DNA from: Gammaproteobacteria bacterium
Lineage (GTDB): Bacteria; Pseudomonadota; Gammaproteobacteria; Steroidobacterales; GCA-2729495
DNA: 43,133 nucleotides
NCBI GenBank assembly: GCA_004357495.1
Contig: SMWD01000026.1
Coordinates: 1 to 43,133, forward strand
Direction: 5' to 3'
Both the position numbers and the translations under genes were made by a program. Shown here piece by piece: positions 7,161-40,847 of this stretch. Below the pieces are notes generated by a model. The model did not search any database. It was given only the letters and a program-made list of their open reading frames with translations, and was not told the origin of the DNA. The first letter of the stretch is position 1; each line of letters opens with the position of its first letter.

Positions 7161-7272
7161 TTAAATTGGGGTCGAGCCCACTGCTAATGTCCCACAACAG
7201 TTGCTCCATCGTCGGCTAGCTAAGTTTGTGGGACGGCACTGGGTCGAACCGAGTTTTACCGACCCCATTAAT
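7161..7272. repeat. Composite element with GGGTCGARCC ends
   Basis: The left end GGGGTCGAGCCCACTG and right end CACTGGGTCGAACC bracket GTCCCACAACAGTTG and CTAAGTTTGTGGGAC. An outer CGACCCCATTAATCGA mirrors the start. The internal stretch TTGCTCCATCGTCGGCTAGC is shared with the elements at 15265-15295 and, inverted, 10295-10325. It fills the gap before the dienelactone-hydrolase-like gene. Confidence 0.75.
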
Positions 7273-28979: not shown

Positions 28980-29897
28980 TGTAATCACCGGCGGTACATT
29001 CGCAAAACTCCAGACCTCGAACGGCACGATTTTGCTGGCGAACGGGTCGGAAAACAGTTGGTCGATCAGCCAGCGCCGCCGCATGTCTTCCTGCGCGCGG
29101 AGATCGGCCGCGGTGAACGCGTCGTCTGCGCGCTCGGTGACGATGTCCATATAGGCGCCGACGAATTCATCGAACAGGCCGGCAATAAAGCGAATGCTGG
29201 CTTCCGCGTCACGGCGATAGACCGGTGGCCCGTAAAAGCTGACGCCCGAGCAGGCCGGCCGGCGACGGAACTCGGTGATGGTGTCCTCCGTGCCCTTGCA
29301 GATCAGGCGACGGTACAGCGACGGATCTTTGTCATGTTGCGCGAAATAGTCATCGGTGACCTGTTTGAGTCGAGCCAGGTCGGCGTCGATGTGCGTACCC
29401 GGCATCACACCGAGCCAGCCGCCGGTGCCGACCGTGCCATCTTCGAAAATCTGCAAAACAATGGTCGCGTGCAGCATGCCGACCAGCGGTGTTTTCGGGT
29501 GCATGTCGAGCGAGTAGAAGCGCCCCCAGGTCAGGATGCCGTCACCGCGTCCGGGATTGGTTTTCTTGCCGTACGATAACATTCGGCCGGCTTTTTCCAT
29601 GACGTTGCCACGCGTGACGCGCAACTCGTAATCTGCGTATTCCGTGCTCGGTGTGCGGTCCTCGAATTCGATGCCGCCGTTCAGGGTCTCGATCTGGCCG
29701 AAGTATTTGCTGTCCATGTCGGTGACGAAACCATTAAAGAAGGTAGTGAATACCGCGCGGTCTTCCTCCGACAGCGGGCTGGCTTTGCCGCCATGCGCTT
29801 GGCCGAATGCCATGCTGAGCGGCAGGATGCCGGCGACCAGTAACAGCAGGTGGCCGAAGCCGGCGTGACGGCAGGCAGGCAGTTTATTCTTGTGCAT
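28974..29897 (-). CDS. Exported HemF-like (divergent coproporphyrinogen III oxidase) protein
   Basis: The ATG at 29897 has GGAG eight bases upstream; a 37-residue longer frame lacks support. The 307-residue protein begins with a signal peptide (FGHLLLLVAGILPLSMAFGQ). The rest aligns by eye with aerobic coproporphyrinogen oxidase HemF along its length: NVMEKAGRMLSY (HemF VFEQAGVNFSH), LDMHPKTPLVGMLHATI (HPHNPYVPTSHANVR), GWLGVMPG, FVGAYMDIVTERA (YTDAYLPIVERR) and DMRRRWLIDQLF (RRGRYVEFNL), ending near ANVPPVITF (MSMPPLVRW). Both His residues (133 and 143) are kept, but the conserved FFDDL is FYGPP (221-225) and GGRTES is lost. HemF itself is cytoplasmic, so this is probably a neofunctionalised paralogue. 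Confidence 0.75.
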   Translation of the reverse strand: MHKNKLPACRHAGFGHLLLLVAGILPLSMAFGQAHGGKASPLSEEDRAVFTTFFNGFVTDMDSKYFGQIETLNGGIEFEDRTPSTEYADYELRVTRGNVMEKAGRMLSYGKKTNPGRGDGILTWGRFYSLDMHPKTPLVGMLHATIVLQIFEDGTVGTGGWLGVMPGTHIDADLARLKQVTDDYFAQHDKDPSLYRRLICKGTEDTITEFRRRPACSGVSFYGPPVYRRDAEASIRFIAGLFDEFVGAYMDIVTERADDAFTAADLRAQEDMRRRWLIDQLFSDPFASKIVPFEVWSFANVPPVITF

Positions 29898-36217: not shown

Positions 36218-38587
36218 ATGAGTGATCCGACCCACCAGGGTATCGACCGCCTGGCCCTGACACTGGCCGCTGCCGTGATTCGGCATCCGTGGAAAGCCAT
36301 CTTCGTCACGCTGCTGATCACGGCGGCGGCAGCCAGCGGCATGCGCAACCTGGAATTTGCCAATAACTACCGGATGTTTTTCGGTCCCGCCAACCCGGAG
36401 CTGAAAGCGTTCGAAACCTTTCAGAACACCTTCACCAAGAACGATAACCTGCTGCTGGTGATCCATCCCGATGTCGGCCATGCATTGAGTCCCGACACGG
36501 CCGCCGCCGTTGCCCGGCTGACCGAAGAGGCCTGGCAGATCCCGTTTGCCATGCGTGTCGACTCCATTACCAACTTTCAATACAGCTGGGCCAACGGAGA
36601 TGACCTGACGGTGGAGGATCTGGTGCAGGATGCGGGGTCCATGACAGCGGAGGCGCTTGCTGAGAAACGTGACATTGCATTGGCCGAGCCGTTATTGGCC
36701 GGCAACCTGATCGCGCTGGATGGTGTCACCACTGCCGTCAACGTCGCCCTCCGGTATCCGGAAAAAAGTCTCACCGAAGTCCCCACGGCGGTAGCGTTTG
36801 CCCGGAAGCTTGCCGCCGGCATCGAGGCCGATTACCCGCATATTACAGTGGCAATTACCGGCGCCTCGGCGTTGAACAACGCCTTTGCCGAAGCCGGACG
36901 ACATGACGCCACCACCCTCATTCCGGCCATGTACGGGCTGTTGATCGTTTTCAGTTTTGTCGTGCTGCGCAGCGTGGCCGGCACGGTGGCCATGATGCTG
37001 GTCATTGTCTTCGCCACTCTCGTGGCGCTCGGCACCGGCGGGCATGCCGGCTGGACGCTGGATCCGGTCTCGGCCATCGCGCCGGTGGTCATCATGACCC
37101 TGGCTGTGGCGGACAGTATTCATCTGCTGATCACCCTGCGCATGCTGATGCGGGAAGGTCACGGCAAGCTCAGTGCCTTGTCCGAGTCCCTGCGGATCAA
37201 TTTCCTCGCGGTGACGATCACCAGCTTCACGACGATCGTTGGTTTTCTGATGCTGAATTTTTCCGAGTCACCGCCATTCAATCGTCTGGGCAACCTGTCG
37301 GCGATCGGTATTGCAGCGGCCTGGCTGTTTGCCCTGGTGTTGCTGCCCGCCGTCATCCGCCTGATGCCGCTCAAGACGCCGCAGACCCAGGATGAACCCC
37401 GCGGCCTGCTGCCGGCGCTGGACCGCCTCGCCTGCCTGGTCACCACCCATTACCGGAAGGTGCTGCTGGTCATGGGTACGATCACCCTGGTGTTGATCGC
37501 CTGCATACCCCGGATCGAGCTGAACGATGAGTTCGTCAAGTACTTCGATCATCGCGTGGAGTTTCGTCGCGACACCGACTTTACCCAGGAACACCTGCGC
37601 GGCATCTATATGGCGGAGTTCTCCATGCAGGCCGACGGGCCCGGTGGTATCAGTGAACCGACGTATCTGGAAGGCCTGGAACGTTTTGCCGTGTGGCTGC
37701 GTACTCAGCCCGAAGTGGAGCACGTGTTCAGCTACACGGACATCATCAAGCGGCTGAACAGGAATATGCACGGTGACGACAAGACCTGGAACACGCTCCC
37801 GGACAACCGGAACCTGGCCGCCCAGTACTTGCTGCTCTATGAACTGTCGTTGCCCTACGGCCTGGACCTCAATGACCGGATCAATATCGATAAGTCCGCC
37901 ACCCGGCTTACCGTAACGTTGAAGGAGATCTCCACGGTGGAGCTGCGGGCATTCAGTCAGCGTTCCAGCCGGTGGCTGACGTTGAACACGCCGAAGTATA
38001 TGTGGACCGAAGCCACCGGTTCGTTCGTCATGTTCTCCCACATTTCGCGGCGCAATGTAGAGTCCATGCTCATCGGTAACGTAATCGCCATCATCGCGAT
38101 TGCCCTGATCATGATGGCGGCGCTGCGCAGCGTGGGTTACGGTGCGCTCAGCATCATTCCCAATGCAGTGCCCGTTCTCGTAACACTGGGCATCTGGGCG
38201 TTGGCGGTGGGACAGGTGGGGATGCCGGCGGCCACGATTACGGCCACGTCGCTCGGCATCATCGTCGATGACACGGTGCACTTCATGCTCAAGTACCTGC
38301 GGGCGCTGCGGGAAAAAGGCATGGAACGGCCCGCAGCCATACGCTACGCGTTCGAAACGGTCGGTACGGCCATGCTTGCGACCACGCTGATTCTGGCCGC
38401 CGGCTTTGCGCTGCTGGCCGCCTCGACCTTCAAGATCAACGCTGAAATGGGGCTGCTGACGGCACTGGCCATTGTGGTCGCACTGATCACCGATTTCCTG
38501 TTATTGCCGGCCATCCTGATGATCGGTTACCGGCATCCGGAGACCGCGGAGAAAAATGATGAAGACCTCGTTACACAAGTGGCCTGA
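36218..38587 (+). CDS. MMPL/RND-superfamily exporter
   Basis: This is a 789-residue inner-membrane exporter of the COG1033/MMPL type. A first helix near residues 25-45 is followed by a periplasmic loop (about 50-220), a block of helices (IPAMYGLLIVFSFVVLRSVA, SAIAPVVIMTLAVADSIHLL, FLAVTITSFTTIVGFLMLNF), a second loop and a second helix block (MLIGNVIAIIAIALIMMAAL, TSLGIIVDDTVHFMLKYLRA). The Asp residues in VADS and VDDT mark the proton-relay positions. The ATG at 36218 is chosen because the upstream frame from 36161 would translate the operator. The C-terminus overlaps the LolA-like gene by 32 bases. It probably extrudes lipids or hydrophobic metabolites. Confidence 0.92.
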   Translation: MSDPTHQGIDRLALTLAAAVIRHPWKAIFVTLLITAAAASGMRNLEFANNYRMFFGPANPELKAFETFQNTFTKNDNLLLVIHPDVGHALSPDTAAAVARLTEEAWQIPFAMRVDSITNFQYSWANGDDLTVEDLVQDAGSMTAEALAEKRDIALAEPLLAGNLIALDGVTTAVNVALRYPEKSLTEVPTAVAFARKLAAGIEADYPHITVAITGASALNNAFAEAGRHDATTLIPAMYGLLIVFSFVVLRSVAGTVAMMLVIVFATLVALGTGGHAGWTLDPVSAIAPVVIMTLAVADSIHLLITLRMLMREGHGKLSALSESLRINFLAVTITSFTTIVGFLMLNFSESPPFNRLGNLSAIGIAAAWLFALVLLPAVIRLMPLKTPQTQDEPRGLLPALDRLACLVTTHYRKVLLVMGTITLVLIACIPRIELNDEFVKYFDHRVEFRRDTDFTQEHLRGIYMAEFSMQADGPGGISEPTYLEGLERFAVWLRTQPEVEHVFSYTDIIKRLNRNMHGDDKTWNTLPDNRNLAAQYLLLYELSLPYGLDLNDRINIDKSATRLTVTLKEISTVELRAFSQRSSRWLTLNTPKYMWTEATGSFVMFSHISRRNVESMLIGNVIAIIAIALIMMAALRSVGYGALSIIPNAVPVLVTLGIWALAVGQVGMPAATITATSLGIIVDDTVHFMLKYLRALREKGMERPAAIRYAFETVGTAMLATTLILAAGFALLAASTFKINAEMGLLTALAIVVALITDFLLLPAILMIGYRHPETAEKNDEDLVTQVA

Positions 38588-39389
38588 ACACGCCTTGCTG
38601 GTCCTCGTCACACAGATGGCGATCCTGGTGGGCATGATGGTCGGCAGCACCACTGCCATGGCTGCGGGCGACGGCAAAGGCTACGAGATTGCGGCCCGCT
38701 CGGATCGCAGTGACCGGGGCTTCGGCGACAGCAGGGTGCAATTGCAGATGATCCTGCGCAATGCCGCGGGACAAGAAGCCACCCGTACCCTGTGGCTGAA
38801 TACCCTGGAGATCGTCGATGAGACCGTCGGTGATAAAAGCATGATCGTCTTCGATACCCCGGCCGATATCGAGGGTACGGCGTTGCTGTCCCACGCCAAA
38901 ATCCTCGACCCGGATGACCAATGGTTATATCTGCCGGCGCTCAAGCGCGTGAAGCGCATCTCGTCGGTGAACAAGTCCGGCCCCTTCGTCGGCAGTGAGT
39001 TCGCCTTTGAGGATTTTACGGGCCTGGAACTGAACAAGTACGACTATCAATATCTGCGCGAAGAGGCCTGCGGCGACCGGCTGTGTGACGTGATCGAGCG
39101 AATACCCCGCTACGAGCATTCCGGTTACACCCGCCAGGTCGCCTGGGTGGATCAGGATGTTTACCAGGTTCGGCGGGTGGACTTCTACGACCGGCGCGGC
39201 GAGTTGTTGAAGACGCTGCATCTCGAAGACTACCGGGTTTATGACGGCAATTACTGGCGCGCGCATCGCCTGGCCATGGTCAATCACCGGACTGGAAAAT
39301 CAACCGACCTGATTTACCAGGACTATGTCTTTAATAGCGGTCTGGCGGACCGGGACTTCGTCAAAGCCGCGCTGAAGCGGCAACGCTGA
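38556..39389 (+). CDS. LolA-like outer-membrane lipoprotein-sorting protein
   Basis: A 277-residue exported protein (signal through MVGSTTAMAA) of the LolA-like superfamily found beside RND pumps (PF17131/COG2834 type). Core features are RTLWLNTLEIVDETVGDKSM, DTPADIEGTALLSHAKILDP, DDQWLYLPALKRVKRISSVN and KSGPFVGSEFAFEDFTGLEL, which form the half-barrel lipid-binding sheet. It overlaps the pump gene (translational coupling) and probably hands the pump's hydrophobic substrate across the periplasm. A Cys pair (EEACGDRLCDVIE) could form a disulfide. Confidence 0.9.
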   Translation: MMKTSLHKWPEHALLVLVTQMAILVGMMVGSTTAMAAGDGKGYEIAARSDRSDRGFGDSRVQLQMILRNAAGQEATRTLWLNTLEIVDETVGDKSMIVFDTPADIEGTALLSHAKILDPDDQWLYLPALKRVKRISSVNKSGPFVGSEFAFEDFTGLELNKYDYQYLREEACGDRLCDVIERIPRYEHSGYTRQVAWVDQDVYQVRRVDFYDRRGELLKTLHLEDYRVYDGNYWRAHRLAMVNHRTGKSTDLIYQDYVFNSGLADRDFVKAALKRQR

Positions 39390-39410
39390 CGAAGATGAAG
39401 GCCGCGGGAA

Positions 39411-39648
39411 ATGGTCAGATGCCACTGTCCCGTCAACGAGCGCTACGGTGGCGGAAAGGCAGTGCGGCATGGGTGCGTACAGATCGTAGCCGAGCCGACA
39501 TGGTTTGTGACTTCTTTCTGAGACCCGCCGTGAATACGTCCCTGTAGGCTTGGGGCCCGCGTCCATGCGGGCCACAGTCTCAGAAAGAAGTCACAACCCA
39601 TGTCGTCTGGACAGCTTTTGCCAGTTTGCGGGACAGCAATGGTCAGAT
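39411..39648. repeat. Composite hairpin element (long type) with 29-nt stem
   Basis: AATGGTCAGAT occurs directly repeated at 39410-39420 and 39638-39648, beside CTGTCCCG and CGGGACAG. Inside, arms 39496-39524 and 39577-39605 are complementary at 28 of 29 positions and enclose a second hairpin (GCCCGC/GCGGGC). It is an inverted relative of 1408-1647. It separates the LolA-like gene from the beta-barrel gene and contains the latter's start codon. Confidence 0.88.
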
Positions 39649-40847
39649 TCTTTTTTTTCGACGCCTTTTTCCTCGTCCTGTTCGGGCTGCTGATCAGTGC
39701 CGGTTGCCAGGCCGAGGAGAACTGGAGTATCGGCGGTTCGGTGGGCGGGGAAATACGCGTATTCCCCAACTCCCCACAGCACCCGGGCCAGCTATCCGGC
39801 GCACACGGTGCGCTGCTGCTGAATCCGGAACTTCGCTACCGCAGCCCGGACCGGCGACACCTGGTGCGCTTTGCGCCGAACGTGCGCATCGACAGCCGGG
39901 ATGCGGACCGCAGCCTGGTGGATATCACCGAGCTGGTCTGGATCTGGGCCGGCGAACACTGGGAAACCGCGACCGGCATTAACAAAGTGTTCTGGGGGGT
40001 CACCGAATCCCGACACCTGGTGGACATCATCAACCAGACCGATGCCGCCGAAGACATCGATGGTGAGGAGAAGCTGGGTCAGGCCATGTTCAATCTCACC
40101 ACCCAGCGCGACTGGGGCCGGGTCAGCGCTTTCCTGCTGGCCGGCTTTCGGGAACGCACCTTCCCCGGGCGCGAAGGGCGGCTGCGTACGCCCCTGCCGG
40201 TGGACACCGATCAGCCTGAATACGAATCCGGTGCCGGGCAGAATCATGTGGATGTCGCGCTACGCTATTCCCATTATCTCGGTAACTGGGATATCGGTGC
40301 CGCGGTTTTCCATGGCACGGGCCGCGAGGCGCGGTTCCGGATCAATGACACGGGCACGGCGCTGATTCCGATCTACGATCAGATTACCCAGTTTGGTACC
40401 GACCTTCAGTACACGTCCGAAGCCTGGTTGTGGAAATTCGAGGGCATCGTGCGTTCGGGTCAGGGTGATACCTTCGCCGCCACGGTCGCGGGGTTCGAAT
40501 ACACGCTGTATCAGCTGAAAGAAACGCCGCTGGATCTTGGCCTGCTGGTGGAATATTTATACGATGGCCGCACGAACGAAGCGCCGGTGACAATCCACGA
40601 CAACGATGTGTTTGCCGGCGCGCGCCTGGCGCTGAACGACGTTCAGGGAAGCAGCTTGCTGATGGGCGTCGTCGTCGACGTTCAGGATCAGTCGACGGGG
40701 TTGTTCATCGAGGCGGAACGGCGCATCGGCAACAGCTGGAAACTGGAAGTGGAAAGCCGCTGGTTCTTTAACGTGGCTGCTGACAACACCCTGCAGCCGG
40801 TCGAAGATGACGACTATCTGACCCTGCGGATACGGCGGTATTTTTGA
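39639..40847 (+). CDS. Predicted outer-membrane beta-barrel protein of the export cluster
   Basis: The ATG at 39639 lies inside the right end tag of the repeat element; it gives a signal peptide of normal form (FFLVLFGLLISAGCQAEE). The 402-residue mature protein is rich in alternating amphipathic strands with aromatic ends (HLVRFAPNVRIDSRD, YSHYLGNWDIGAAVFHGT, WKFEGIVRSGQGDTFAATVA) and finishes in LTLRIRRYF, a C-terminal Phe as used by the BAM insertion signal. A 16- to 18-strand barrel is plausible. Following an RND pump and a LolA-like carrier, it is likely the outer-membrane component or exit pore. The family is not recognised by name. Confidence 0.75.
   Translation: MVRFFFFDAFFLVLFGLLISAGCQAEENWSIGGSVGGEIRVFPNSPQHPGQLSGAHGALLLNPELRYRSPDRRHLVRFAPNVRIDSRDADRSLVDITELVWIWAGEHWETATGINKVFWGVTESRHLVDIINQTDAAEDIDGEEKLGQAMFNLTTQRDWGRVSAFLLAGFRERTFPGREGRLRTPLPVDTDQPEYESGAGQNHVDVALRYSHYLGNWDIGAAVFHGTGREARFRINDTGTALIPIYDQITQFGTDLQYTSEAWLWKFEGIVRSGQGDTFAATVAGFEYTLYQLKETPLDLGLLVEYLYDGRTNEAPVTIHDNDVFAGARLALNDVQGSSLLMGVVVDVQDQSTGLFIEAERRIGNSWKLEVESRWFFNVAADNTLQPVEDDDYLTLRIRRYF

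Follow-up and report, generated by a model that had tools for sequence, protein, structure and literature searches.

The hairpin element at 39410-39648 of the window (the whole 43,133-nucleotide stretch of DNA analysed) is an insertion with terminal repeats and an 11 bp target duplication, situated 20 nt past the stop codon of one gene, where it covers the start codon of the following gene. Compensatory change maintains its fold, a long outer stem enclosing two small ANGGAY hairpins with a spacing of 23 nt. Judged from sequence comparison, the element probably belongs to a dispersed gammaproteobacterial palindromic repeat (the YPAL/RU-2 family), which would encode on its reverse strand a structured RNA of the TwoAYGGAY type with a putative CsrA/RsmA site.

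Structure and position of the window copies

Two copies of AATGGTCAGAT (39410-39420 and 39638-39648) flank the 217 bp of the element. The left copy covers the start codon that the downstream gene originally had (ATG GTC AGA T), and the right copy includes an ATG at 39639, which is likely the start codon of that gene. Terminal inverted repeat regions lie directly inside the duplications, at 39421-39436 (plus strand, GCCACTGTCCCGTCAA; also present on copies in C112, C114 and C129) and at 39624-39637 (minus strand, TTTGCGGGACAGCA). The outer stem has two arms, 39496-39524 (CGACATGGTTTGTGACTTCTTTCTGAGAC) and 39577-39605 (GTCTCAGAAAGAAGTCACAACCCATGTCG), the former being the 3′ arm when the constrained minus strand is read; 28 of their 29 positions are paired, as stated in the preliminary description. 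The arms enclose a conserved 52-nt core (39525-39576, minus strand; alignments A1 and A2) with two small hairpins. On the minus strand, hexaloop 1 (39538-39543) reads AGGGAC on a UAC/GUA stem and hexaloop 2 (39561-39566) reads AUGGAC on a GGCCCGC/GCGGGCC stem, both with C-G closure. The fold energy of 39411-39648 is −114.8 kcal/mol (z −6.0), a value equalled by none of 200 dinucleotide shuffles, and the covariance model R1 matches at 39511-39590 with 91.4 bits. The hairpin of the preliminary description was thus recovered, while the enclosing insertion with its terminal repeats and target duplication had been overlooked there.

The upstream gene (38556-39389, plus strand) encodes a LolA-like outer-membrane lipoprotein-sorting protein (Pfam PF17131, E 2.8e-59), and its stop codon at 39389 precedes the AATGGTCAGAT duplication by 20 nt. 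The downstream gene (39639-40847, plus strand, about 402 aa, without a Pfam match) is probably the third gene of an MMPL/LolA-like operon. Only 3-6 nt separate these two genes (genes 2 and 3) in distant relatives, and the window element is therefore an insertion.

A second copy, inverted relative to the first, occupies 1409-1642, with plus as its constrained strand and 10 bp duplications (GGTTCGACCC) at 1409-1418 and 1633-1642. Over 1408-1647, its fold has a z of −6.7 with no shuffle as stable, and R1 matches it at 1460-1539 on the minus strand with 86.1 bits. The reported covariation between the two copies holds: compensated arm differences are found in both, except that the copy at 1408 also has an indel and mismatches farther out in the stem. 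Both copies are 214-217 bp long and end in imperfect inverted repeats built around TGTCCC(A/G)CAAACT, and both are antisense to the neighbouring genes on the constrained strand. Of the features of a MITE with a DDE transposase, terminal inverted repeats and target duplication are present, and an unsystematic search identified no partner transposase with the same ends. The MAG of the window holds at least five long copies together with fragments, most of them bordered by duplications of 9-11 bp of their own; some of the duplicated targets (GGTCAGACC, GGTTCGACCC) are partly palindromic, as judged without statistics. Ends of the TGTCCC(A/G)CAAACT type were not seen on the freestanding copies in most other genera. 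A third R1 match in the window (29094-29174, 26 bits, E 0.0025) lies amid predicted ORFs and is probably a chance match.

The end motif TGTCCCACAAACT also occurs at 7223 (minus), 10284 (plus) and 15289 (minus) of the window, where it encloses either a REP-like palindrome (GTGGGAGCGGCTTTAGCCGCGAT) or something else, which suggests that one set of terminal repeats carries different palindromic cargo. A REP-like inverted repeat (GTGGGAGCGG...CCGCTCCCAC) is situated at about 1318-1396, directly left of the second copy, and an extra hairpin insertion (CTACCCCAAGGGCGCTTCCTGCGGGGCGCC) was seen within some cores (G000:C108, C146 and C129). An intrinsic transcription terminator or an ordinary REP sequence would likewise be an intergenic, hairpin-forming element, often placed between convergent genes, as copies of the family are. 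However, no excess of U-tract terminators was found beside the elements, on which ground the terminator was rejected, and the core is unlike the REP-type repeats nearby, leaving this explanation the most improbable of those considered.

Distribution of the family and selection on the fold

The covariance model found matches in 76 of 370 gammaproteobacterial genomes, about a fifth. When 397 genomes were drawn from the phylum, all 33 positives belonged to the class of the window, the share of other classes in the draw not being tallied. A pattern scan of named genomes yielded at least 119 loci and, among the matches listed, every named organism was gammaproteobacterial or a MAG filed there. Exact copies of a degenerate pattern numbered 247 in G256, 71 in G409 and 66 in G420, with none for the reversed-pattern controls. 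The plasmid and phage collections searched gave no match. Altogether, 305 distinct copies of the element were retrieved; two copies alone are weak evidence, but this number lies far beyond chance.

The core without terminal repeats is also present in other genera of the window's family and order. Each such core sits at the middle of a palindrome, and the arms, though for the most part particular to the locus, are almost perfectly complementary. Pairing of the arms is lost at about 25-31 bp (median 26 bp in 245 long-armed copies), with the longest arms reaching 48 bp and, by eye, longer still in G004.

The preliminary description had proposed, from the two window copies, that the fold itself is maintained, and compensatory change across 38 aligned relatives (alignment A2) bears this out. 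In this alignment, 95.0% of predicted-pair cells pair, compared with 63% after shuffling, two-sided changes occur at 24 of the 29 pairs, and the covariation score reaches 0.81, compared with 0.21 for shuffled and at most 0.18 for slid alignments. The outer-stem figures lean upward, since A2 was picked partly for good arms; the inner helices are free of such selection. Copies with uncompensated stem changes were sought as a refutation, and about 3% of the outer-arm cells were unpaired in the 245 long-armed copies.

Individual sites point in the same direction. At the pepQ site across Stenotrophomonas, the element is kept and arm changes are compensated. The edd-eda gap of the same genus has a readable element in most of 21 loci, with arms that vary between species in a compensated manner (e.g., L257 and L262). 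At one orthologous pepQ position, the core types differ while the outermost arm sequence is largely retained. In L224 and L252, the Stenotrophomonas element has been lost, apparently by deletion between short direct repeats. The locus-specific arms had suggested an insertion mechanism that makes an inverted copy of the flank, but L224 and L252, the only element-free copies found, look like deletions, and this mechanism is unsupported. In the whole genomes of G409 and G463, elements are often paired, 260-440 bp apart, in the order plus then minus on the displayed strand; 9 of the 14 G409 pairs examined sit between convergent genes. In L207, a 6S RNA gene (295-478) lies near a copy of the element.

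The constrained strand

On the strand displayed, mismatches in the arms are distributed asymmetrically, with 108 A·C against 20 G·T (p = 9e-16) and 43 T·C against 6 G·A. In the inner helix, 104 T.C/C.T mismatches are opposed to 4 G.A, equivalent to G.A pairs on the reverse strand. The asymmetry repeats in the named-genome loci (62 versus 9) and in Stenotrophomonas (21 versus 5), the direction being the same in three separate sets. Since A·C on one strand corresponds to G·U on the other, and T·C to G·A, it is the reverse strand that must fold, and G-U and G-A pairs are tolerated by this strand only. The mismatch spectrum thereby turns round the strand on which the element was initially read. 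It also rules against a forward-strand RNA, though the forward strand is sense to the upstream genes in Stenotrophomonas. Among single elements of G409, the constrained strand is antisense to the gene directly upstream in 18 cases versus 6 (p = 0.02), and all 14 pairs converge, with Stenotrophomonas gene calls for G409 orientation taken from a home-made codon-usage script.

The same asymmetry bears on the idea that compensation is a mutational artefact. Template switching during replication (quasi-palindrome correction) rewrites one arm from the other and would mimic compensation without selection; the near-perfect, locus-specific arms are what it would produce. This process predicts no preference between A.C and G.T, in contrast to the observed 108 versus 20, and it leaves the conserved loops unexplained. 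Quasi-palindrome correction was rejected because of the asymmetry; it is largely refuted and highly improbable as the source of the pattern.

The mismatch asymmetry identifies the strand and leaves RNA versus single-stranded DNA undecided; the ANGGAY loops favour RNA. In a single-stranded DNA substrate, the reverse strand would fold as DNA for a transposase or recombinase, and the mobility cycle would keep the pairing, with cores swapped at existing palindromes. G-T and G-A pairs are tolerated in single-stranded DNA, and the strand specificity is also compatible with such a substrate. The variation of core types at the one pepQ site with largely kept outermost arms, and the lack of an orientation fitting sense transcription, also speak for it, as does the dyad symmetry at YPAL targets described below. 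On the other hand, the match of the loops to the CsrA/RsmA consensus would then be coincidental, vertically kept sites show compensated changes, and an unsystematic search identified no partner enzyme or transposase. A DNA substrate is held to be unlikely, and a structured RNA on the reverse strand is preferred.

Known relatives, loops and CsrA

Three catalogued entities appear, from their sequences, to be united in one family with the window element: Yersinia YPAL/RU-2, Rfam TwoAYGGAY (on the reverse strand) and Ysr224 (on the forward strand), both Rfam matches being below threshold. A literature search for a link among YPAL, TwoAYGGAY and Ysr224 found none.

R1, which was built without Yersinia, scores the YPAL copies L184 and L176 with 65.6 and 67.7 bits, respectively, and one YPAL copy found by R1 differs from the published RU-2 at 3 positions in a match of 167 nt. 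The core and fold are common to YPAL/RU-2 and the window element, and the published RU-2 (PMC2759123) aligns to the window core. Both are dispersed, have target duplications and occupy sites near stop codons: the window copy follows the stop at 39389, and 18 of 24 single elements in G409 are placed by upstream stop codons. The descriptions consulted give YPAL a length of about 168 bp without terminal inverted repeats, a target-site duplication of 3-26 bp and an occurrence confined to Yersinia and Erwinia carotovora (De Gregorio 2006 and Delihas 2007, after PMC2229807 and PMC2759123). The window duplications of 11 bp (39410/39638) and 10 bp (1409/1633) are within this range, whereas the window copies are longer (214-217 bp) and possess imperfect terminal inverted repeats. 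Moreover, the present family spans many gammaproteobacterial families, with largely locus-specific arms. YPAL targets are described as spanning or adjoining dyad symmetry (PMC2229807).

TwoAYGGAY has two AYGGAY hairpin loops on a long, poorly conserved outer stem in gammaproteobacteria (RF01731; Weinberg 2010, PMC2864571). Matches of RF01731 coincide with these elements, opposite in strand to those of R1, with a best score of 41.8 bits, under the gathering cut-off of 43 bits. The model had no match in the window, and a direct Rfam scan of the window returned nothing at gathering; RF01731 was unlisted in a first Rfam scan of 20 loci and turned up solely in single searches or small sets. The window element also has two loops on the same strand, but these are AGGGAC and AUGGAC, making the second position N, not strictly Y. 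The TwoAYGGAY stem is reported to have two tandem-GAs, and CsrA binding has been proposed for this RNA (PMC4333381). The inner helix of the element likewise has G-A pairs, whose adjacency was judged by eye and left uncounted. The published table places TwoAYGGAY in the human gut, gammaproteobacteria and Clostridiales, without mention of a high-copy repeat (PMC2864571). Ysr224 has been described as a Yersinia sRNA (PMC9029176). Its consensus (RF02770) includes the forward-strand core, by which Ysr224 is taken as the other strand of the same element; RF02770 scores 16.6 bits in the window and 38.5 bits at best, the cut-off of 70 being unreached.

On the reverse strand, loop 1 has the form ANGGAY in 210 of 214 cores, loop 1 itself being in the search pattern, and loop 2, which lies outside the pattern, in 207 of 214. 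Loop 2 is closed by C-G in 207 of 214 cores and mostly reads CANGGAYG, and the two loops are spaced 23 nt apart. The CsrA/RsmA motif is ANGGAN (PMC3791407); the CsrA SELEX consensus is RUACARGGAUGU, mostly in loops of six nt, and a CsrA dimer bridges sites 10-63 nt apart, with an optimum above 18 (PMC7652899). The element thus presents features of CsrA/RsmA targets: ANGGAN-type hexaloops closed by C-G and paired-site spacing within 10-63 nt. These are shared with the sponge sRNAs CsrB/CsrC and RsmX/Y/Z, including a spacing suited to the CsrA dimer. The element differs from these sRNAs in having two sites per unit and many dispersed copies, with no promoter/terminator unit recognised, and in that csrA was not found in some of its hosts. 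A literature search on CsrA and intergenic repeats found nothing relevant. By their sequence, the loops are plausible paired docking sites for CsrA/RsmA, this being not the sole explanation.

Of the 76 carriers in the gammaproteobacterial sample, 74 possess csrA, as do 249 of the 294 other genomes (Fisher p = 0.0017, uncorrected for phylogeny and genome size). It was not detected in the carriers G003 (98% complete), G004 (99%) and G212 (98%), nor in G000-G002, including the window's own MAG; G003 and G004, which are near-complete relatives, harbor the element in many copies. Since csrA was not found in the window lineage, only a structural function, a csrA gene that escaped detection or a remnant of past mobility can account for the element there. 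The abundant, paired elements in genomes without detected csrA, and the closeness of Stenotrophomonas elements to stop codons, are consistent with a hairpin that stabilises or processes the host mRNA in cis independently of CsrA, as proposed for YPAL, the loop consensus being kept for another reason. Such a stabiliser, however, needs no invariant ANGGAY loops, C-G closure or fixed 23-nt spacing, and in Stenotrophomonas the mRNA of the upstream gene would carry the strand intolerant of G-U. This account is a minority possibility, though less doubtful than a DNA substrate.

According to the preferred reading, a paired CsrA/RsmA site in the reverse-strand RNA, transcription of the reverse strand would let the stem clamp both loops into one bivalent dimer site of the CsrA/RsmA type. 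The hairpin might then stabilise, process or regulate its transcript in cis or, alternatively, many copies of the element might titrate CsrA. The mostly antisense orientation of the constrained strand in G409 and at both window copies, the absence of terminator enrichment beside the elements, the Rfam scores under the cut-offs and the carriers without detected csrA speak against this reading. A wider proposal is put forward tentatively, as less likely than not: the repeats would form a class-wide family with between tens and about 250 copies in a genome, and compensatory evolution would preserve each copy as a bivalent hairpin on which CsrA/RsmA docks. The number of copies in a genome would then set up either a dispersed decoy for CsrA or a network of transcripts under local regulation, and in some lineages the repeats would have been disseminated after capture within transposable insertions.

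YPAL, TwoAYGGAY and Ysr224, catalogued separately, are apparently one element seen from two strands, and asymmetry among the mismatches suffices by itself to tell which strand of such an element is constrained. If the loops do not bind CsrA, conserved CsrA-like loops in genomes where csrA is undetected present a puzzle. If they do, many genomes would contain unrecognised CsrA sites by the dozen or the hundred, and CsrA titration would have to be modelled differently.
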